Of a stretch of 53,886 nt of DNA, positions 38,989 to 50,421 are shown piece by piece. Origin of the DNA: Candidatus Rokuibacteriota bacterium (GTDB lineage: Bacteria > Methylomirabilota > Methylomirabilia > Rokubacteriales > CSP1-6); assembly GCA_016179925.1 (NCBI GenBank), contig JACPCG010000097.1, forward strand, positions 1 through 53,886, written 5' to 3'. The notes under the pieces were generated by a model. That model saw nothing but the letters and a program-made list of their open reading frames with translations, searched no databases and was not told where the DNA came from. Numbering within the stretch: the first letter of the stretch is position 1; every line of letters begins with the position of its first letter. The position numbers were made by a program, and so were the translations under genes.

Positions 38989-39764
38989 CGCACGACGGCG
39001 CCGCGGCGGGGCAGCCGGCCGATGCCCGCCGTCGCGCCCTCCACTTCCGCGAGGAGGGGGCGGGCCGCGGCGGCGAAGGCGTCGAGGCCGCGGTCGGCGA
39101 CGACCACGAAGGACGCGAAATAGTCGTGGCCTTCGGCCAGACCCAGGCCCGCCGCCGCGCGGCCGGCGTCGAGCACGAACCGGTCGCGCAGGAGCCAGCC
39201 GCGGCGGTCGCGCACGCTGACGCTGCTCTCGAGGAGCCTGAACCGCCACGCCTCGTCCCGCGCGATCCGGCCGGCGGCGAAGGCGTCGAGCAGGATCAGC
39301 GCGGCGCCGTCGTCGAGCTCGATGTCGAAGGTCTGGTGGAACGCCGAGTCCGCGAACGGAATCGTGTGGTCGGGCACCCACTCGACGATCGCCCGGGGCC
39401 CGAGGCGGAGGGACACCGTCTGAACGGCCGCCTCGCCCTTCGTCCGGTAGACCCGGCTCGCAGACGGCGTCGTGAGGACCGCGTGCGCCCCTTCCCGGGC
39501 GTCCACCTCGATCAGGAGGCGGTCGCCGCCGACGAGGCCGCCGGTGGGGTTCAGGACCGACACGACGGCGGCGGGATCCTCGAGCGCGACCGGCGCCAGC
39601 ACCTGGAGCGGGAGCGTGGAGCGGCACCCGCTGACGACGGTCGCCGGGCCGCGCCGCTCGAACCTGAGCGCGAGCGCGCCGTCGCGGCCGACGCGGGCCG
39701 GGTCGACGCTAGCGCGCGGCGGGTTCGAGGAGGAGCTCGTGACGGATCCAGGCGAGGACCGCAT
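38985..39764 (-). pseudogene. ureD: Urease accessory protein UreD, C-terminus missing
   Basis: About 260 residues with full UreD character: RRGPATVVSGCRSTLPLQVLAPV, VLNPTGGLVGGDRLLIEVDAREGAHAVLTTPSASRVYR, EWVPDHTIPFADSAFHQTFDIEL and ATAGIGRLPRRGAVVRCLA. Family members continue for roughly 40-50 residues; here the sequence instead passes into the DUF47 gene in a different frame, ending at a chance stop at 38577. UreD docks on urease and channels nickel from UreG. The only reasonable start is the ATG at 39764, within the end of ureG. It is damaged or misassembled. Confidence 0.8.
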
Positions 39765-39993
39765 CGACGCCCTCGCCCGTCCGGAGGTTGGTGAAGACGA
39801 ACGGCCGGGCGCCGCGCATCCGGCGCGCGTCGCGCTCCATCACCCCGAGGTCGGCGCCCACGTGGGGCGCGAGGTCGATCTTGTTGATCACGAGCAGATC
39901 GGAGCGCGTGATGCCGGGCCCGCCCTTGCGCGGGATCTTCTCCCCCTCGGCGACGTCGATCACGTAAATTCCCGGATCGCCGTGTGCGGGCAC
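39709..39993 (-). pseudogene. ureG: Urease GTPase UreG, C-terminal fragment
   Basis: Continues UreG in another frame from [38 protein letters not shown] (the NKxD guanine-specificity motif) to LLEPAAR. Joined to the upstream fragment near 39970. Confidence 0.8.
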
Positions 39994-40214
39994 CCGCCCG
40001 TCTCGACGCCGACGACGCGCTCGGGCGGGAGCGCGCCGCGCCGGATCAGGAACTCGGCGTCCTCCTTCGTGTAGATGTCGTTGGTGATCACCGCCATGTC
40101 GAGCGCCTCCCGGAGGCGCACGCAGAGGGCCTCGGCCAGCGCGGTCTTGCCCGAGCCGACGGGGCCACCGATGCCGATCTTCAGGGGCCGGGGGACGGCA
40201 GGATTCGCGCTCAT
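39960..40214 (-). pseudogene. ureG: Urease GTPase UreG, N-terminal fragment with internal deletion downstream
   Basis: The first 80 residues of UreG: P-loop [18 protein letters not shown] near residue 16, [16 protein letters not shown] and the metal-binding [14 protein letters not shown] near 75 (Cys-Pro-His). Normally about 43 residues follow, including the ESGGDNL motif, before [10 protein letters not shown]. Here that stretch is missing and the frame changes at the join. UreG hydrolyses GTP to drive nickel insertion, so the enzyme as written could not work. The ATG overlaps the ureF stop (ATGA). Confidence 0.82.
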
Positions 40215-40903
40215 GACCTGAACAGCCTCATGTCGAGCGCCGCGTGGCGGAGGCCCGCGAGCTCGAGGCCGGGGTTGAAGCTCCACATGTCGTCGATGGT
40301 CTTCGCGGCTGTCGCCGCGACGAGCCGCTCGATCCGCGGCCGCATCGCCGCGAGCGCCCGCTGGCCGTCGATCTGGCCCAGGGCGACGAGACGCAGGCCG
40401 GCGCCCACCAGCAGCGCGGCGGTCGCGTAAAGGTACGCCGTCGCCGCGCGCTCGGGGTCGGCGCCCGCGCGTCCGAGCGCCCCGCCGAAGGCGACCGCGT
40501 GGTGGCCGGGCGCGAGCCCGTCGTCGACGGCGTGCAGCAGCTCGCCGAGGACCGGATCGTCGCCGAGCGCCGCGGCGGCACGGAGCGTCTGGCGGCCCAT
40601 CTGCCGGCTCGCCGCCCGGAACTCGGGCACGCACTTCATCGCGTCGAGTCTCTCGTCGAGCGAAACGATCCCCGGGACATCGGAGGCGGCGGCCCGGCGC
40701 GTCGCCAGCGCGACCGCCACGGCGTCGCAGGGGCCGGCGCTCCCCTCGAGGTGGGCGGCGACGAACGCCTCGAGCCCGGAACGGTCGCGCACACGTCCCT
40801 CTTGCACGTACGTCTCGAGCCCGAACGAGTGCGCGAACCCGCCCGCGGGGAACAGCCCGTCGGCGAACTGGAGGAGCGCCAGGAGCGCGCGGTCAGTGGT
40901 CAT
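40211..40903 (-). CDS. ureF: Urease accessory protein UreF
   Basis: A 230-residue all-helical UreF. It has the family blocks [29 protein letters not shown] at residues 10-38, [26 protein letters not shown] and the C-terminal [22 protein letters not shown]. It joins UreD and UreG in the nickel-loading complex. The ATG overlaps the end of ureE by 11 nt and its stop overlaps ureG. It is complete, in contrast to its partners ureG and ureD. Confidence 0.93.
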
Positions 40904-41374
40904 GGCGGTGACCCGCGCCGCCGACAGGCAGGAACACGCTCTGGACGCGCTCGAAGGCGAGGCCGAGCCGCGTCAGGAGCTGGTCCATCGCGGGATCGTC
41001 AGGGACGAGCAGCCGGTCGCCGTCGAGCGCCAGGGTGAAGTGGCGGTTGCCGACCTCGAAGGCGACGCGGATCGCCTCCTCGCGCGAGCGCGGCGCGACG
41101 GCGAGCACCGGTTCCGGCGCCGCCTCGATCACGACGTACCACCCGGGACCGACGTGGAGGATCTCACCCGGTGTGAGCACGCTCCCCGTCGGCAGCGCCA
41201 GCGCCAGGGTCCGGCCCGCGCGCGTGGTGACGCGGCGCCGCCCCCAGCGGCGCTCTTCCGCCGTCAGGACGAGGGCGTCGCGCTCGAGTCGTGCCAGCGT
41301 GCCGTCCGGCACGTGGACGTGCGGCTCGGTGATCACCGGCACCGGTGACTCTCCGGAGAGGAGGGGCCGCCGCA

Positions 41375-41375
<1 letters not shown>
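40893..41375 (-). CDS. ureE: Urease accessory protein UreE (nickel metallochaperone)
   Basis: A 160-residue UreE: N-terminal peptide-binding domain with LTAEERRWGRRRVTTRAGRTLALALPTGSVLTPGEIL, then the metal-binding domain with EVGNRHFTLALDGDRLLVPDDPAMDQLLTRLG (nickel-binding His in GNRHF near residue 113). The C-terminus is short with a few His (GHRHDH) rather than a long His tail. It delivers nickel to UreG. The start overlaps the ureC stop (TGATG). Confidence 0.88.
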
Positions 41376-43089
<1,714 letters not shown>

Positions 43090-43093
<4 letters not shown>

Positions 43094-43440
43094 GACCGCC
43101 GCTCCCACTCGGCGAGCTTCGCGAGGGCCTGCGCCTTCGTGCCGCCCTGGCTCAACGCGTTCAGGCCGTAGATCGTCCGCGCGCCCGCGAGCTCGACGAG
43201 CGTGACGCGCTTGGCGTCGCCGGGCTCGAAGCGCACCGCGGTGCCCGCCGGCACGTTGAGGCGCATCCCGAACGCCTGCGCCCGATCGAAGCGGAGCGCC
43301 CGGTTCACTTCGAAAAAGTGGAAGTGGGAACCGACCTGGATAGGCCGGTCGCCCGTATTCGCCACGCTCAGCTCGACCGTCCTGCGCCCCGCGTTGGCCA
43401 CGATGTCGCCCTCGCCCAGAAGATACTCGCCGGGAATCAC
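43090..43440 (-). CDS. ureB: Urease subunit beta
   Basis: A 116-residue Ure[75 protein letters not shown], the canonical beta-barrel subunit. I start at GTG 43440, preceded by GGAGG at a good distance and matching the family N-terminus; longer in-frame starts run through the repeat element. The stop overlaps ureC. It is separated from ureA by a palindromic repeat of about 157 bp, which is unusual in urease operons. Confidence 0.93.
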
Positions 43441-43502
43441 GTGCTGCCTCCTTCCAGGAGCCGGTAGGAGAAGGCTCCGAGCGCCTCGACGACCACGTCC
43501 AT
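43437..43502 (-). CDS. Possible 21-residue ORF coupled to ureB
   Basis: ATG 43502 opens a short frame ([21 protein letters not shown]) whose TGA overlaps the GTG of ureB. It might be a leader peptide coupling ureB translation, or the remnant of a gene. There is no independent support. Confidence 0.25.
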
Positions 43503-43559
43503 CGCGCCTCAGCGTCCCATCGCCGGAATCATGTGGAGACCCCGCGTGCATGCGGGCCC

Positions 43560-43716
43560 CGGGGCCGACGGGCGCGTGTCGAGAGGGGGCGTGGGAACCC
43601 GTTCCCTCCACGGGGCAGCGGACCGAGCGCCTCCGGATGGAGCCCAGCCGCAACGGGGCAGCGCACGCCTGCCGCGTGGTCCCACGCTCCTTCTCGACAC
43701 GCGCCCGTCGGCCCCG
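43560..43716. repeat. Palindromic element, family 2, copy C, inside the urease operon
   Basis: A 157-bp palindrome with 37-nt arms (43560-43596 and 43680-43716, two mismatches) beginning CGGGGCCGACGGGCGCG. The centre read on the minus strand has CGTTGCGGCTGGGCTCCATCC, the same core as copies A and B. It starts 12 nt after the ureA stop and lies upstream of ureB, so the transcript of the operon would contain it as a large hairpin. Confidence 0.85.
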
Positions 43717-43728
43717 TCCGGCAAGACA

Positions 43729-44031
43729 CTAGCGGATCGGGTGGTGGATCGTGACGAGCTTGGTGCCGTCGGGGAACGTCCCCTCCACCTGCACCTCGTC
43801 GATCATCTCGGGCACGCCGTCCATCACGTCGTCGCGGCCCAGGATCGAGAGGCCCGACGCCATCAGCTCCGAGACGGTCCGTCCGTCGCGGATGCCCTCG
43901 AGGATCTCGGCCGTGATGAGCGCGAGCGCTTCGGGGTGGTTGAGCCTGAGCCCGCGCGCCCGGCGGCGGCGCGCCACCTCGGCGGCGGTGAAGATCAGGA
44001 GCTTCTCCTGCTCCCGAGGAGTGAGGTGCAT
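43729..44031 (-). CDS. ureA: Urease subunit gamma
   Basis: A 100-residue UreA with the family sequence [46 protein letters not shown] and the C-terminal [18 protein letters not shown]. It forms the trimer interface with UreB and UreC. It starts 18 nt after urtE, showing that transporter and enzyme are one transcription unit. GGAGG precedes the ATG. Confidence 0.95.
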
Positions 44032-44049
44032 CGTCGAACCTCCCTGACG

Positions 44050-44742
44050 TCAGACGCTGAGCAAGGCGCTCACCCGGTCCACGTCGAACGTCTGCCGCTC
44101 GCCCTCCAGCGCCACCACGCCCTTGTCCATCACGTAGAAGCGGTCGCAGATCGAGCGCGCGAACTCGAGGTACTGCTCGACCAGCAGGATGGACCGCCGG
44201 CCCTCACGCTTGATCCGCTGCAGCACCTCGGCGATTTCGTCCACGATCGAGGGCTGGATGCCCTCGGTCGGCTCGTCGAGCAGGAGGAGCGCGGGGTCGG
44301 CGATCAGCGCCCGCGCGATCGCGAGCTGCTGTTGCTGGCCGCCGCTGAGGTCCCCGCCGCGCTTGCCGAGCATCCCGCCGAGCGCGGGGAAGAGCGCGAG
44401 GACGTAGTCCAGGCGCTCGGGCGCCGGCTGCTTGCGCCGGGCGCCGAGGGTGAGGTTGTCGCGCACCGTCAGGCCCGGGAAGATCTCCCGCCCCTGCGGC
44501 ACGTAGCCGATCCCCAGGCGGGCGCGCTCGTAGGGCGGCCGGCGGGTGATGTTCCGGCCCCTGAACTCGACGGCGCCCCGGCGGGGGACCAGCAGTCCCA
44601 TGATGGTCTTGAGCAGCGTCGTCTTCCCCACCCCGTTCCGGCCCATGACGCACACCACCTGGCCGTCCGCGACGGACAGGCCGACGTGCGTCAGGACACG
44701 GCTCTCGCCGTAGTAGACGTCGATCCCGTTCACGGCGAGCAT
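44050..44742 (-). CDS. urtE: Urea ABC transporter ATPase UrtE
   Basis: A 230-residue LivF-type ATPase. Walker A GRNGVGKTTLLKTIMGLL near residue 37, signature LSGGQQQQLAIARALIADP near 136 and Walker B LLLLDEPTEGIQPSIVDEI near 158. It powers urea import with UrtD. The TGATG overlap with urtD and the close spacing to ureA argue for a single operon. The UrtE assignment over branched-chain amino acid LivF rests on the urtABCD-ureABC context. Confidence 0.92.
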   Translation of the reverse strand: MLAVNGIDVYYGESRVLTHVGLSVADGQVVCVMGRNGVGKTTLLKTIMGLLVPRRGAVEFRGRNITRRPPYERARLGIGYVPQGREIFPGLTVRDNLTLGARRKQPAPERLDYVLALFPALGGMLGKRGGDLSGGQQQQLAIARALIADPALLLLDEPTEGIQPSIVDEIAEVLQRIKREGRRSILLVEQYLEFARSICDRFYVMDKGVVALEGERQTFDVDRVSALLSV

Positions 44743-45515
44743 CAGGCCGCTCCTCTCACCTTGCCGCGCCCGAGGTACGCTTCCACGACACGCTCGTCGG
44801 CCTGGACCCGGTCCAGGGAGCCCTCCGAGAGCACGGTGCCCTCGTGCAGCACCGTGACCCGGTGACCCTGCCGCGCGATCTGCCGGACGAACTCCATGTC
44901 GTGCTCGATGAGCATCACGCTGCAGGCCGAGCGCGCCACGATCGCCTCGATCAGCGCGACGGTCTTCTCCTTCTCGGGTCGGGTCATGCCCGCCGCGGGC
45001 TCGTCGAGCAGGAGGAGGGTCGGCTCCTGGACCAGCAGCATCGCGATCTCGAGCCACTGCTTCTCCCCGTGGGAGAGGGTGCCGGCCAGGTGCTGGGCGC
45101 GCTCGCGGAGCCCCACCCGGTCCAGCACATCGACGATCGCCTCGTGGTCGCGGAACACCCGGCCCGCGCCGAGCGTCGCGACGAAGCGCTTGCGGCCCGC
45201 GGACAGGAGCATGTTCTCGAACACGGTGTGCCCGGGGAAGACCGAGGGGGTCTGGAACTTGCGGATCACGCCGGTGTTGGCGATCTCGTGCGGCCTCATC
45301 CCGAGCACATTCACGGTGTCGCGGAACAGGACACGGCCGGCCGTCGGCGTCACGTACCCGGTCAGGACGTCGAACAGCGTCGTCTTCCCCGCGCCGTTCG
45401 GCCCGATCAGCAGGCGGACCCGCTCGTTCCGCTCGATGATGAGGTTCAGGTTCCTCAGCGCGAGGAATCCGTCGAACGACACCGTGAGGCTCTCGACGTA
45501 GAGCAGTGTCTCCAT
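44742..45515 (-). CDS. urtD: Urea ABC transporter ATPase UrtD
   Basis: A 257-residue LivG-type ATPase: Walker A GPNGAGKTTLFDVLTGYV near residue 38, signature LSHGEKQWLEIAMLL near 146 (SHGEKQW is typical of UrtD), Walker B LLLLDEPAAGMTRPEKEKT near 170 and the C-terminal LGRGKVRG. ATG start 45515, four bases from the urtC stop. Cytoplasmic partner of UrtE at the inner membrane. Confidence 0.93.
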   Translation of the reverse strand: METLLYVESLTVSFDGFLALRNLNLIIERNERVRLLIGPNGAGKTTLFDVLTGYVTPTAGRVLFRDTVNVLGMRPHEIANTGVIRKFQTPSVFPGHTVFENMLLSAGRKRFVATLGAGRVFRDHEAIVDVLDRVGLRERAQHLAGTLSHGEKQWLEIAMLLVQEPTLLLLDEPAAGMTRPEKEKTVALIEAIVARSACSVMLIEHDMEFVRQIARQGHRVTVLHEGTVLSEGSLDRVQADERVVEAYLGRGKVRGAA

Positions 45516-45518
45516 GGA

Positions 45519-46655
45519 TCAGGCGGTGTGCTCGTTCACGCCGGACGGGGCGACTTCGGCGGCGGACACGGCGCGCCGGCCCGTGAGGACGGCCGTGGCC
45601 CGCGCCGCGAGCCCCACGAGGCCCGACGGGAAGAGCAGCATGACGGTCATGAAGAGCCCGCCCAGGATGATCGGCCAGAGACTGGGGTAGGTCGCCGTCA
45701 GCACGCTTCGCAGCCAGTTCACCGAGATCGCTCCGACCAGCGCGCCCCACAGCGTGCCCCGGCCGCCGAAGGCGACCCAGATCACGATCTCGAGCGACGG
45801 CAGCACGCCGACCTGGCTCGGCGTGATGATCCCGACCTGGGGGGCGTAGAGGAGGCCGGCGAGCCCCGCCAGCGCCGCCGAGACCGCGAACACGAAGATC
45901 TTGAAGCCCGCCGCGTCGTAGCCGAGGAACTCCAGGCGCCGTTCGTTGTCGCGGATCGCCTCCAGCACGAGCCCGGTCTTCGAGCGGACGAGCGCACGTG
46001 AGAGGAGGAGCGCGCCGACGAGGAGCACGGCGGTGACGACGTAGACCGCCCGGAGCGTCGCGGGGCTGCCGAGCGAGAATCCGAGGATCGATTTGAAGTC
46101 GGTCAACCCATTGGTCCCACCGAGCTTCATCTCGTTGCGGTTGACCATCAGCCACACTGCGAACGCGATCGCCTGCGTGAGGATGGCGAAGTAGGTGCCG
46201 CGCAGCCGCCGGCGGAGCGTGAGGAACCCGATGACCATCGCGAAGAGGGCGGGGAGCAGGATCGCGGAGGCGAGCGCCAGGACGGCGTACTTGTAGGGCT
46301 TCCAGAACAGGGGGAGCTGGTACACCTGGTTCCAGATCATGAAGTCGGGCACCGGCTCGCCGTAGACGCCCTTGCCCGCGCCCTCGAGCATCATGTGCAT
46401 GCCGATCGAGTACGCCCCGATCCCGAAGAAGATCGCCTGGCCGAGCGAGAGGATCCCCGCGTAGCCCCAGATGAGGTCCATGCCGAGCGCCAGGATGGCG
46501 AGGGCGAGGTACTTCCCGAAGAGGTTCAGGAAGTAGTCCGACACGAACCCCAGCGCGTTCGCCGCCGGCAACCCGACGATGAAGACGACGGCGAAGAGCC
46601 CCACCCACACGAGCTGGGGATCCCGCGTCCGCGCGAGGTCCGGCGCCACGGTCAC
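45519..46655 (-). CDS. urtC: Urea ABC transporter permease UrtC
   Basis: A 378-residue LivM-type permease with about nine membrane segments: FLNLFGKYLALAILALGMDLIWGYAGILSLGQAIFFGIGAYSIGMHMML, TYFAILTQAIAFAVWLMVNRNEMKLGGTNGLTDF (a urea-permease hallmark) and WVAFGGRGTLWGALVGAISVNWLRS. The GTG at 46655 overlaps the urtB stop (GTGA). It forms the channel with UrtB. Confidence 0.93.
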   Translation of the reverse strand: MTVAPDLARTRDPQLVWVGLFAVVFIVGLPAANALGFVSDYFLNLFGKYLALAILALGMDLIWGYAGILSLGQAIFFGIGAYSIGMHMMLEGAGKGVYGEPVPDFMIWNQVYQLPLFWKPYKYAVLALASAILLPALFAMVIGFLTLRRRLRGTYFAILTQAIAFAVWLMVNRNEMKLGGTNGLTDFKSILGFSLGSPATLRAVYVVTAVLLVGALLLSRALVRSKTGLVLEAIRDNERRLEFLGYDAAGFKIFVFAVSAALAGLAGLLYAPQVGIITPSQVGVLPSLEIVIWVAFGGRGTLWGALVGAISVNWLRSVLTATYPSLWPIILGGLFMTVMLLFPSGLVGLAARATAVLTGRRAVSAAEVAPSGVNEHTA

Positions 46656-48283
46656 GCCGTCTCCGCTGCCGCGCGCCCCCGCTGAGCGAAGAGCCCTGTG
46701 GGACGCCACTGGAGGAACCAGATCACGATCACCAGCACCGCGACCTTCGCGTAGACGGCCGCCGCGGTGCCGCCGATCGCGGGCTCGATGAGCTTGTTGG
46801 ACAGGCCGAGGCAGAAGGCGGCCACGACCGTCCCGACGAGCTTGCCGACGCCGCCGAGGACCACGACCATGAACGAATCGACGATGTAAGTCTTGCCGAC
46901 CTCCGGATCCACGGTGCCGATGAGGGCGAGGGCGCAGCCCGCCACGCCGGCGAGCGCGGTGCCGAGGGCAAAGGTGACCGCGTCCACCTTGCGCGTCGAG
47001 ACGCCGAGGCACGAGGCCATCGCGCGGTTCTGCATGACCGCCTGCACCTTCATGCCCGCGTAGGTGCGGTTCAGGAGGAACCAGAGCGCGCCCAGCGCCG
47101 CGAGCGCCAGCGCCACGATGAAGATCCGGCTCCAGGGGAAGATGAGCCCGGTGAGGGCCTCCACCCCGCCCCGGAACCACGTCGGGGAGTTCACGCTCGT
47201 CTGGTCGCCGAAGTAGAGCCGGGCGCACTGCTGCAGGATCATCCCCACGCCCCAGGTCACGATCAGCGTCTCGAGCGGCCGGCCGTAGAGGAAGCGGATG
47301 ACGCCCAGCTCCAGGACGAGCCCCACCAGCCCGGCGGCGACGAACGACAGCGGCAGCGCGACGAAGAAGTAGTAGTCCTGGTACGCCGCGAACCGCGCGT
47401 GGAAGATCTCCTGCACGACGTAGGCCGTGTAGGAGCCGATCATGAGCATCTCGCCGTGCGCCATGTTGATGATGCCCATCAGGCCGAAGGTCACGGCGAG
47501 CCCGAGACTCATGATCAGGAGGACCGCCGCGAGGCTGATCCCGTTGAAGAGATAGCCGACGATGTTTCGCCGGACCACGAAGCGGTCGATGTCCTCGAGG
47601 GCCGTGCGCGCGGCAGCCTTCACCGCGGGGTCCGGCTCCTGCTCGAGCAGCGCCCGGAGCTGCGGCACGGCCGCCTCCGAGCTGGAGCGCCCCAGCCGCT
47701 TGACGGCGTCCAGCCGGTCCTTCGGCTCGGGCGACCGGAGCCTGAGCTTGGCCAGCGCCTCTTCCATGACGAGCCTGACGCCCCCGTCGGCCTCGCGTGC
47801 GACGGCCTGGGCGAGCACGCCCACCGCCGCCGGATCGCCCGAGGTCCCGAGCTTGAAGGCCGCCGACTGCCGCTTGGCGCGGTCCGGGCTGAACACCTCG
47901 AAGCGTTCGAGGATGCGCTGGATGATGCCGAAATGCGCTTCCTCCAGCGCCACCGATTCCTGGCCGGTCTCGACCGACGCCGGTTGGCCTTGGGCGTCGA
48001 GAACGGGCTGGCTCGCGACGTCCGTGAGGCCGCCGTCGTCACCGAGGATCACGATCCGTCCCTTGTAGGTGTAGAGCGCCCCGTCCTTGAGCGCCCTCAG
48101 GAGACGCTCGACCGCCGGGTCATCTGCCTCCGCGAGCCCGACGATCGCTGCCTTTTGCGTCGCCGGCGCGGCGAGCCGGCGCGCGACGGCCTCGAGGTCG
48201 AGAGCGCCGGGCCCGGCGGCCGCCGCGCCGCCGAGCCCGGTCAGTGCCCACGCCGCCACGAGGGCGGCGACGAGCGCGCGCAC
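46652..48283 (-). CDS. urtB: Urea ABC transporter permease UrtB
   Basis: A 543-residue UrtB. Unlike LivH it has a signal peptide (ALVAALVAAWALTGLGGAAAA) and a periplasmic N-terminal domain of about 200 residues with helical repeats (AVPQLRALLEQEPDPAVKAAARTALEDI), then the membrane domain: VTFGLMGIINMAHGEMLMIGSYTAYVVQ, TWGVGMILQQCARLYFGDQTSVNSPTW and VVLGGVGKLVGTVVAAF. GTG start overlaps the urtA TAG. Complete. Confidence 0.93.
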   Translation of the reverse strand: MRALVAALVAAWALTGLGGAAAAGPGALDLEAVARRLAAPATQKAAIVGLAEADDPAVERLLRALKDGALYTYKGRIVILGDDGGLTDVASQPVLDAQGQPASVETGQESVALEEAHFGIIQRILERFEVFSPDRAKRQSAAFKLGTSGDPAAVGVLAQAVAREADGGVRLVMEEALAKLRLRSPEPKDRLDAVKRLGRSSSEAAVPQLRALLEQEPDPAVKAAARTALEDIDRFVVRRNIVGYLFNGISLAAVLLIMSLGLAVTFGLMGIINMAHGEMLMIGSYTAYVVQEIFHARFAAYQDYYFFVALPLSFVAAGLVGLVLELGVIRFLYGRPLETLIVTWGVGMILQQCARLYFGDQTSVNSPTWFRGGVEALTGLIFPWSRIFIVALALAALGALWFLLNRTYAGMKVQAVMQNRAMASCLGVSTRKVDAVTFALGTALAGVAGCALALIGTVDPEVGKTYIVDSFMVVVLGGVGKLVGTVVAAFCLGLSNKLIEPAIGGTAAAVYAKVAVLVIVIWFLQWRPTGLFAQRGRAAAETA

Positions 48284-49614
48284 TACGACTTGTCCGACAG
48301 CCACACCCGCTTGCCGCCGACCATGTCGTACGAGCCCTTGCCGTTCTTGCTCCAGTCGCAGCCGCGACCGGGGTACGTCACATCGCTCCACGGCTCGGGC
48401 CGGACCCACGACTTCGTCTTCCAGACGACGTCGAACTGGCCGTCGGCGCGGATCTTACCGATGTAGACGGGCTTCCACGTGTGGTGGTTCTTCTCGTCCA
48501 CCTTGTACTTGCCGACCGGGCTCGCGATCTCGAGCCCCTCGAGCGCCTTCAGGACACGGTCGACCTCGGTGGACTCCGCCTTCTGGACCGCCTTGGCCCA
48601 GAGGTGGACGTGGATGTAGGCGTGCATCATCGGGTCGTCGGTGACGCACTGCTTGGCCGCGATGTTGTGGCCCTTGCACCACTCCTTGTACGCCTTCACC
48701 CACTTGAGGTTCTCGGGCGTCTTCAGCGACATGTAGTAGTTCCAGGAGGCGAGGTGCCCGACGAGCGGCTTGACGTCGAGCGTCTGCAGCTCGACCTCGG
48801 CGAAACTGTACGACATGGTGGGCGTCTTGTCGGCAGTCACGCCCTGGTTGGCGAGCTCCTTGAAGAACGGCACGTTGCTGTCGCCGTTGATCGTGTTGAT
48901 GACGGCCGCGTCGCCCGCCGCGCTGAAGCTTTTGATCTTGCCGACGATCGTCTGGTAGTCCTGGTGGTGGAACGGCGTGTACTCCTCGGCGATGGCGGAC
49001 TCGGGGACCTTCTTCACCTTCGTGAGGTAGAGCCGGAGGATCTTGTTCGTCGTCCGCGGGTACACGTAGTCGGATCCGAGCAGGTAGAACCTCTTCTTGC
49101 CGCCGCCCTCGGGGCTCATCAGGTAGTCGATCCCCGGCGTCGCCTGCTGGTTGATCGTCGCGCCGGTATAGATCACGTTCTTCGAGCACTCCTCACCCTC
49201 GTACTGCACCGGGTAGAAGAGGAGGCCGTTGTTCTTCTCGAAGACGGGCAGCACCGACTTCCGGCTGACCGACGTCCAGCACCCGAAGACCGTCGCCACC
49301 TTGTCCTGGAGCAGGAGCTTCTTCGACTTCTCGGCGAAGAGGTCCCAGTTGGAGGCCGGGTCCTCCACGATGGGCTCGACCTTGCGGCCGAGGACGCCGC
49401 CCGCCTTGTTGATCTCCTGGATCGCCATCAGGACCACTTCCTTGATCGGCGCCTCGCTGATGGCCATCGTGCCGCTGAGCGAATGCAGGATCCCGACCTT
49501 GATCGGCTCCTTGCCCTGCGCGGTCAGGATCTTCGGGAAGCCGACCCCGGCCGCGAGGCCGGTGCCGGCGACGAGCGAGCCCTTGAGGAACTCACGACGT
49601 GACCAAGCGGACAT
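48283..49614 (-). CDS. urtA: Urea ABC transporter substrate-binding protein UrtA
   Basis: A 443-residue periplasmic binding protein with a twin-arginine signal (SRREFLKGSLVAGTGLAAG) and the UrtA-specific run EPIKVGILHSLSGTMAISEAPIKEVVLMAIQEINKAGGVLGR, GCWTSVSRKSVLPVFEKNNGLLFYPVQYEGEECSKNVIYTGA. These positions are the strongest evidence that the system carries urea (or short amides) rather than branched-chain amino acids. AAAGGAG precedes the ATG. First gene of the urt-ure operon, behind a sigma-54-like promoter and an ANTAR-type leader. Confidence 0.95.
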   Translation of the reverse strand: MSAWSRREFLKGSLVAGTGLAAGVGFPKILTAQGKEPIKVGILHSLSGTMAISEAPIKEVVLMAIQEINKAGGVLGRKVEPIVEDPASNWDLFAEKSKKLLLQDKVATVFGCWTSVSRKSVLPVFEKNNGLLFYPVQYEGEECSKNVIYTGATINQQATPGIDYLMSPEGGGKKRFYLLGSDYVYPRTTNKILRLYLTKVKKVPESAIAEEYTPFHHQDYQTIVGKIKSFSAAGDAAVINTINGDSNVPFFKELANQGVTADKTPTMSYSFAEVELQTLDVKPLVGHLASWNYYMSLKTPENLKWVKAYKEWCKGHNIAAKQCVTDDPMMHAYIHVHLWAKAVQKAESTEVDRVLKALEGLEIASPVGKYKVDEKNHHTWKPVYIGKIRADGQFDVVWKTKSWVRPEPWSDVTYPGRGCDWSKNGKGSYDMVGGKRVWLSDKS

Positions 49615-49633
49615 GATGTCTCCTTTCGTGTTT

Positions 49634-49658
49634 GCCGGCGTGCCCTTTGACGCCGGGC
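49634..49658 (-). promoter_or_regulatory. Third hairpin of the urtA leader, next to the ribosome-binding site
   Basis: Stem of seven or more base pairs (GCCGGCGT with ACGCCGGGC). Read on the minus strand, its loop is CAAAGGGC, and within a C-C mismatch the inner six bases AAAGGG again have A1 and G4. It ends about 10 nt before AAAGGAG, so it could alternate with the upstream hairpins or mask the start of translation. Confidence 0.45.
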
Positions 49659-49677
49659 GAGCCATGGGAGCTCTTCC

Positions 49678-49718
49678 GCGCGGCGCCCCTGCCGCGCTCA
49701 CGAGGGACGTCGTTGTCC
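49678..49718 (-). promoter_or_regulatory. ANTAR-type double hairpin in the urtA leader
   Basis: On the minus strand, GGAC-AACGAC-GTCC (49718-49705) is followed after 7 nt by GCGCGGC-AGGGGC-GCCGCGC (49697-49678). Both have six-base loops with A at position 1 and G at position 4, the consensus bound by ANTAR antiterminators such as NasR and EutV. An ANTAR gene lies just upstream. Confidence 0.65.
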
Positions 49719-49736
49719 ACTCGACCGGGGAACGGC

Positions 49737-49752
49737 TGCAAGGCCTGTACCG
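49737..49752 (-). promoter_or_regulatory. Sigma-54-like promoter of urtA
   Basis: Minus strand GGTACAGGCCTTGCA: GG and GC are separated by exactly 10 nt and TTGCA is perfect for the -12 element. The predicted start near 49726 would give a leader that begins just ahead of the ANTAR hairpins. Confidence 0.55.
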
Positions 49753-49807
49753 AACCCGAAGTCAGGGATTTCGTTGAGTTAGCTCCGACCCATTCAGAGC
49801 GGTCTGC

Positions 49808-50392
49808 CTATTCCGCAGGCACATCGCGCGTGACTGACTCCGACACAAGCAGCGCCTTGGCGATCTCCACCATCGGCTTCCTGCTGTCCATCGCCGCGCG
49901 GCGGAGGCGGTGGAACGCCTCCGCCTCGGTGAGGCGGTAGCGGGACATGAGCATCCCCTTCGCCCGCTCGATGAGCTTGCGGCCCTCGAGCGTCTGGCGG
50001 AGCTGCCGGTTCTCGCCGAAGCGCGCGATCGCGAGATCGAGCGCAGGCGCGAGCTCCGCGGCGCGCAGGGGCTTCAGGAGATAGGCCATCACCCCCGCCT
50101 CGCGCGCGCGCTCGAGCAGCGCCTCGTTCGTGTGGCTCGTGAAGAGCACGACCGGACAGTCGGTCGCCAGAATCGCGTGGGCCGCTGCCTCGATGCCGTC
50201 GCCGTCGGGCAGACCGACGGCGAAGATCGCCACGTCGGGGCGCGTGCGCTTGATGAGCGGGACGGCGTCGGCGCAGCAGAGCGCGACGCCAACGACCTCG
50301 CCGCTGGCGGCCCGGATCGCCTCGCGCACGACCGCGCGCGAGGGCTCGTGGTCGTCGAGAATTGCCACTCGCCAGCGCGGCTTCGTCGGCAT
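49808..50392 (-). CDS. ANTAR-domain response regulator (NasT-like)
   Basis: A 194-residue two-domain regulator. The N-terminal receiver-like domain (AILDDHEPSRAVVREAI, RPDVAIFAVGLPDGDGIEAA, VLFTSHTNEALLERAREAGVMAYLLKPL) has an altered pocket: the usual phospho-acceptor Asp in the MD(I/L) strand is replaced around FAVGLPDGDG, so control may not be by phosphorylation. The C-terminal ANTAR domain (LEGRKLIERAKGMLMSRYRLTEAEAFHRLRRAAMDSRKPMVEIAKALL) binds paired RNA hairpins and prevents termination. It lies between glnA and urtA. A sigma-54-like element ends about 14 nt upstream of the ATG. No sensor (NasS-like) gene is nearby. Confidence 0.9.
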   Translation of the reverse strand: MPTKPRWRVAILDDHEPSRAVVREAIRAASGEVVGVALCCADAVPLIKRTRPDVAIFAVGLPDGDGIEAAAHAILATDCPVVLFTSHTNEALLERAREAGVMAYLLKPLRAAELAPALDLAIARFGENRQLRQTLEGRKLIERAKGMLMSRYRLTEAEAFHRLRRAAMDSRKPMVEIAKALLVSESVTRDVPAE

Positions 50393-50405: not shown

Positions 50406-50421
50406 CGCAAGGGCGATGCCA
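50406..50421 (-). promoter_or_regulatory. Sigma-54-like promoter of the ANTAR gene
   Basis: Minus strand TGGCATCGCCCTTGCG matches the -24/-12 consensus closely (TGGCA, GG-N10-GC, TTGC). The start would be within a few bases of the ATG at 50392, making the message nearly leaderless. Confidence 0.6.

Follow-up and report, generated by a model that had tools for sequence, protein, structure and literature searches.

A predicted sigma-54-type promoter and ANTAR recognition element before the urea uptake genes of Rokubacteria

How is urea uptake controlled in the Rokubacteria, a poorly known, uncultured phylum, and does an RNA-binding protein of the ANTAR family take part? The question is raised by a locus of a soil bacterium, Candidatus Rokuibacteriota bacterium, on a contig that we analysed at its full length of 53,886 nt (JACPCG010000097.1, assembly GCA_016179925.1; hereafter the window) and that belongs to a MAG 81% complete. 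Read along the minus strand, amtB and glnA are followed by a receiver–ANTAR gene, a gap of ~190 nt, urtA, urtBCDE and the urease genes. The gap contains CGGTACAGGCCTTGCA, hairpin 1, hairpin 2, a third hairpin and the urtA ribosome-binding site, and an initial annotation had proposed that sigma-54 and antitermination by the ANTAR protein both act on the operon from here. In window coordinates, the features are as follows.

50406–50420, minus strand: second sigma-54-like element (TGGCATCGCCCTTGCG), before the ANTAR gene, with the start codon ~28 nt downstream of its GG
49808–50392, minus strand: gene for a pseudo-receiver and ANTAR RNA-binding protein (194 aa, P0001; Pfam ANTAR PF03861 2.4e-22, Response_reg 9.7e-16)
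49805–49821, no strand assigned: inverted repeat (TGCCT-N7-AGGCA) overlapping the ANTAR stop codon, upstream of the urtA promoter; candidate site for an activator
49737–49752, minus strand: sigma-54-like promoter of urtA
49702–49722, minus strand: hairpin 1 (P1), covariance-model match, hexaloop AACGAC at 49714–49709
49678–49697, minus strand: hairpin 2 (P2), covariance-model match, hexaloop AGGGGC at 49690–49685
49635–49656, minus strand: third hairpin, CCGGCG (49656–49651) with CGCCGG (49640–49635), read from the sequence, just upstream of the Shine-Dalgarno sequence
48283–49614, minus strand: urtA, urea ABC transporter substrate-binding protein with a Tat signal (P0002; TIGR03407 at 555 bits, above the cut-off of 492.75 bits; TIGR01409)
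39700–48282 (approximate bounds), minus strand: presumed rest of the transcription unit, urtBCDE and urease and accessory genes (ORFs all on the minus strand; urtB–E by tblastn in relatives; urease gene names from reading translations, without a family search)

The urtA ATG lies at 49614, behind a Shine-Dalgarno sequence AAAGGAG at 49626–49620. The order ANTAR gene–urtA is the same in the relatives' loci (ANTAR searches of the order and of named genomes), with glnA upstream wherever the flank suffices. Some relatives carry a beta-barrel porin-like gene between glnA and the ANTAR gene (L031, 3623–4846; L074, 3663–4859). The ANTAR-to-leader cassette stands in tandem in L018 (1126–3119) at a repeat distance of 983 bp, possibly an assembly artefact, and a short Fis/NtrC-like DNA-binding reading frame lies behind ANTAR there. 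Within the window, an Rfam match to 5_ureB_sRNA (42643–42940, plus strand, 60.2 bits) runs antisense to ureC and may merely mirror the conserved urease coding sequence.

The two hexaloop hairpins were found exactly where the initial annotation had placed them. Hairpin 1 is GGAC-AACGAC-GUCC, extended by GAG/CUC across a bulged U, and hairpin 2 is GCGCGGC-AGGGGC-GCCGCGC, with 7 nt between the GUCC end of the first and the start of the second. Both loops have A at position 1 and G at position 4 (A1 and G4), and the ANTAR gene is indeed adjacent, with a Pfam ANTAR match of 78.9 bits at 50392–49808. A search of Rfam at gathering thresholds returned nothing at the urtA leader. Folding of the single sequence was uninformative as evidence; its energies are unremarkable (z of 0.18 for the hairpin pair and −0.74 for the leader), so the case rests on comparison, in which the conservation seen in relatives greatly exceeds chance.

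Several lines of comparison bear on these hairpins. First, pairs of adjacent hairpins, each with a stem of 3 bp or more and a loop of six bases, occur in the window leader and in most relatives, and strict dual A1/G4 hairpins are present in 16 of 30 distinct leaders, against 0 of 30 for each of the remaining 15 combinations of letters at loop positions 1 and 4 and a mean of 0.055 (maximum 1) in shuffled leaders; for shuffles of the window leader itself, the probability of a dual A1/G4 hairpin is 0.0018. The loop pattern on which the proposal of ANTAR control turned is thus conserved in orthologous urtA leaders.

Second, in an alignment of 20 leaders, picked partly by eye, A1 is kept in 19 and G4 in all 20 in both loops, the closing C–G pair is found in 20 of 20 in both hairpins, and loop positions 2, 3, 5 and 6 vary. 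Stem pairing (percent paired) and the covariation score exceed those of all 500 shuffles, counts that lean towards the structure, with which in mind the alignment was built. When hairpin 1 is picked by stem score alone, A1 appears in 36 of 38 leaders and G4 in 30 of 38.

Third, the loops lie 21–25 nt apart, in keeping with the spacing that EutV is reported to require (PMC8934654), and the closing C–G pair with A1 and G4 equals the NasR SELEX consensus (PMC7496416). Departures occur: ten leaders, mainly of a more diverged ANTAR clade, have no second hairpin at the standard spacing, hairpin 1 has G1 in L028 and A4 in L140, and hairpin 1 frequently fails to dominate the free ensemble (mean P 0.34). 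The third hairpin, which the annotation had noted by the urtA ribosome-binding site, is present there but in the leader comparison is limited to the window's genus and the nearest genus, and has no U-tract. Together, these comparisons support a putative ANTAR recognition element before urtA that is conserved in relatives.

A covariance model scores the window leader at 62.3 bits over 49725–49676, with the next site in the genome at 24.1; the genome has one strong model site and one ANTAR gene, P0001. Leaders outside the training set also match (L130, L134, L137–L140 and L144), some of them from the same genera as the training leaders, and in L137 urtA lies away from ANTAR, yet its leader carries both elements. 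A model match at E<1e-3 was obtained in 27 of 59 genomes of the order, all with ANTAR, and in none of the 16 ANTAR-less genomes searched; the hypergeometric chance of this co-occurrence, ~5e-6 by hand, is not independent and is confounded because the ANTAR-less genomes mostly lack urtA too. A separate case is L148 (genome G053), which keeps the sigma-54 element and hairpins before urtA, with no ANTAR gene found in G053. Two wider uses of the model were abandoned: it gave no second strong site for a genome-wide hairpin regulon, and weak matches only on the ANTAR loci of other phyla.

Inverted repeats just downstream of a promoter might instead be DNA sites for a DNA-binding regulator, palindromic operators being common. 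Yet the conserved bases are the unpaired A1 and G4, the stems vary with pairing kept, and the neighbouring regulator belongs to an RNA-binding family. Further, four leaders (L010, L014, L019 and L036) lack the urtA promoter element and keep the hairpins directly behind the ANTAR stop codon, within the ANTAR–urtA transcript; the hairpins thus form an element in their own right, distinct from the promoter. We find a role at the DNA level hardly credible and treat the hairpins as RNA.

What, then, would start the transcript that carries them? The GG-N10-GC element with TTGC that had been read ahead of urtA is exactly in position: in CGGTACAGGCCTTGCA (49752–49737, minus strand), ten bases separate GG (49751–49750) from GC (49739–49738), and GGYAYNNNNYTTGCW has no other exact match in the window. 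GG-N8-TTGC recurs in 35 of 39 distinct Rokubacteria urtA leaders (shuffled mean 1.8, maximum 6), with the ten-base step from GG to GC falling inside TGGCAY-N5-TTGC and with GG, A and TTGC invariant across leaders. The predicted sigma-54 start, ~49726, lies upstream of the hairpins as proposed, and in silico every predicted start among the leaders precedes them; the loop of hairpin 1 follows GG at a near-fixed distance of 35–44 nt. The ANTAR gene has the same kind of element in 35 of 37 distinct Rokubacteria loci (shuffled mean 1.6, maximum 5), with 27–29 nt from GG to the start codon in most. With its sigma-54 element placed ~28 nt ahead of the start codon, the ANTAR gene would be transcribed with few bases upstream of that codon, an arrangement that suggests a nearly leaderless ANTAR mRNA, conserved among relatives.

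Whether sigma-54 itself reads these elements is a separate matter, since RpoN was not found in the window's own MAG and the four relatives without the urtA element must read through from ANTAR. Both observations favour a reading in which GG-N10-GC is unused by sigma-54 and urt is transcribed via ANTAR read-through or another promoter. However, RpoN is present in 58 of 60 genomes of the order and in 36 of 36 near-complete ones, the failure to find it in the window's MAG is most simply explained by incompleteness, and the window's genome encodes at least 17 strong sigma-54 activator domains; no protein of that genome passes the NtrC equivalog cut-off (best 467 versus 558.6). Given also the invariant bases at a fixed distance from the hairpins in 35 of 39 leaders, we hold transcription without sigma-54 to be very unlikely. 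The comparison supports a sigma-54-type promoter before urtA, conserved in relatives, and we infer that sigma-54 is used at both promoters.

Upstream of the urtA promoter, TGCCT-N7-AGGCA resembles an activator site. The TGCCT/AGGCA repeat occurs in 21 of 39 leaders, in 20 of them with N7 (mono-shuffle mean 1.6, maximum 4), and its distance to the downstream GG is ~70, 81 or 103 bp, values about a whole number of helical turns apart; the repeat and the ANTAR stop codon overlap in some loci. Genome-wide it is no commoner than the reversed pattern, and since it is not enriched, no regulon can be read from it.

The protein that would read the hairpins aligns to EutV (6wsh) and Rv1626 (1s8n). Its ANTAR domain aligns with that of EutV without gaps, and of the 11 RNA-contact residues reported for EutV (PMC8934654), seven are identical (R142, K143, K149, E160, R168, M172 and R175) and three more are conservative (K147R, Y164F and N173D). 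In every aligned Rokubacteria sequence, Ala takes the place of the receiver's phospho-acceptor Asp, which Chloroflexi and actinobacterial relatives retain. A receiver without this Asp points to control by a partner, and a partner protein or ligand, rather than phosphorylation, probably frees the ANTAR protein. A search for a partner sensor gene beside ANTAR found no leaderless AmiC/NasS-like gene, the neighbours being glnA and urtA. As for UrtA as the specific partner, leader similarity is no less closely tied to ANTAR than to UrtA (partial r 0.40 and 0.28), a comparison that speaks neither for nor clearly against the idea. In one genus, two loci (L023 and L024) are 85% alike in both ANTAR and leader and only 66% identical in UrtA, a pattern that would fit exchange of the urt operon with its control left in place.

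Of the dual control that the initial annotation envisaged, the sigma-54-type promoter and the ANTAR element stand, but antitermination is not established: an intrinsic terminator overlapping hairpin 2 is absent from the window leader and occurs in 1 of 39 leaders, L028. There the 3′ arm of hairpin 2 doubles as part of a terminator that ends in TTTTTGTTTGTT, and the unaided ensemble favours the terminator (P of hairpin 2 0.01). A U-tract is missing from the other 38 leaders, which brings Rho or translation into consideration. The same recognition element could accordingly have another output, with ANTAR acting on translation start, Rho-dependent termination or RNA stability, an option to which we give somewhat less than even chances. 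Besides the missing U-tracts, it is favoured by the position of hairpin 2, about 40–60 nt before the start codon in many relatives, and by the remark of Ramesh et al. that terminator-less motifs may act on translation (PMC3369931). Against it stand the textbook overlapping terminator of L028 and the lack of support for simple sequestration: predicted Shine-Dalgarno accessibility hardly depends on whether hairpin 2 can form (0.56 versus 0.60), and with no clear change translational sequestration by this hairpin was set aside. A Desulfobacterota relative, a MAG (L041, 4695–4810), resembles L028 in this: a sigma-54 element, an A/G hairpin and an overlapping T6 terminator precede the nitrite reductase gene nirA and nitrate-transporter-like genes, in a locus with a D-to-A ANTAR gene.

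In our preferred scheme the step acted on is early termination, and we think it likely that urea uptake and urease are under a two-layer, AND-gate control, by sigma-54 promoters and then by ANTAR-read hairpins. Under nitrogen limitation, sigma-54 RNA polymerase with an enhancer-binding activator would fire the ANTAR-gene and urtA promoters, giving a nearly leaderless ANTAR transcript and a urtA transcript starting at ~49726, at whose extreme 5′ end the two hexaloop hairpins would fold. Active ANTAR protein, a pseudo-receiver type probably freed by a partner protein or ligand rather than by phosphorylation, would bind the hairpins through the flipped-out G4 of each loop, and the transcript would continue through urtABCDE–ure. 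Within this proposal the scheme is a coherent feed-forward loop. Comparison across relatives shows that the promoter and recognition elements are there, that a single ANTAR gene lies adjacent, and that its product has the RNA-contact residues and lacks the Asp; we infer ANTAR binding, the partner requirement and action by preventing early transcription termination. A more elaborate version seems to us unlikely: a terminator-less ANTAR hairpin pair, Rho- or translation-based, in a sigma-54 feed-forward loop with a nearly leaderless ANTAR mRNA and, holding the pseudo-receiver, an unusual partner, perhaps the precursor form of UrtA with its Tat signal, working as a sensor like AmiC, or else the glutamine synthetase encoded next to the ANTAR gene.

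How much of this is new? The joint use of sigma-54 and ANTAR, which the initial annotation took for a new combination, has a precedent in Klebsiella nas, where the Ntr system is combined with NasR antitermination (PMC5424462); promoters for ANTAR genes have been predicted in a sigma-54 regulon survey (PMC12316311), and a Ralstonia locus (L102) has both sigma-54 and ANTAR elements. Nor is an ANTAR RNA before urea uptake genes new as such, since Ramesh et al. 2012 already list urea transporters among the genes behind ANTAR-type RNA motifs (PMC3369931). Those predictions share motif kind and target gene class with our locus but, in the text consulted, form one item of a computed list, with no description of Rokubacteria, a sigma-54 layer or a leader comparison.

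Among characterized systems, Klebsiella oxytoca nasF is similar in that an operon for scavenging nitrogen is under Ntr control and has a leader with two A1/G4 hexaloop hairpins, read by an ANTAR protein whose gene is likewise Ntr-induced (PMC5424462, PMC7496416). By contrast, nasF serves nitrate rather than urea uptake and urease, NasR has a NIT-domain sensor in place of a pseudo-receiver, and the window leader has no intrinsic terminator. AmiR/AmiC offers a pseudo-receiver ANTAR protein and a target concerned with amide nitrogen, and UrtA is an AmiC homologue (1pea, 150.6 bits); however, AmiR (1qo0) matches the window protein weakly in sequence (2.6e-6), no cytoplasmic AmiC-like gene lies beside the window ANTAR gene, and the window UrtA has a Tat signal. 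Enterococcus faecalis EutV shares the dual hexaloop RNA and most RNA-contact residues (PMC8934654), but is phosphorylated by EutW, whereas the window protein has no Asp to receive the phosphate, and eut leaders carry overlapping terminators. In NasS–NasT of Paracoccus, Azotobacter and Bradyrhizobium, the ANTAR gene likewise lies directly upstream of a nitrogen-assimilation operon leader; unlike there, a NasS-like sensor gene is absent beside the window ANTAR gene.

A search of the literature available to us found no report of this Rokubacteria system. The parts are already known; the Rokubacteria urt case itself is new and well supported. It provides a clear, phylogenetically supported case, from an uncultured phylum, of ANTAR–RNA control acting on urea uptake and urease. 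Its promoter and RNA layers are separable, as four relatives with the RNA layer alone ahead of urtA illustrate, and the near-universal absence of a terminator makes the role of terminator-less ANTAR hairpins directly testable.
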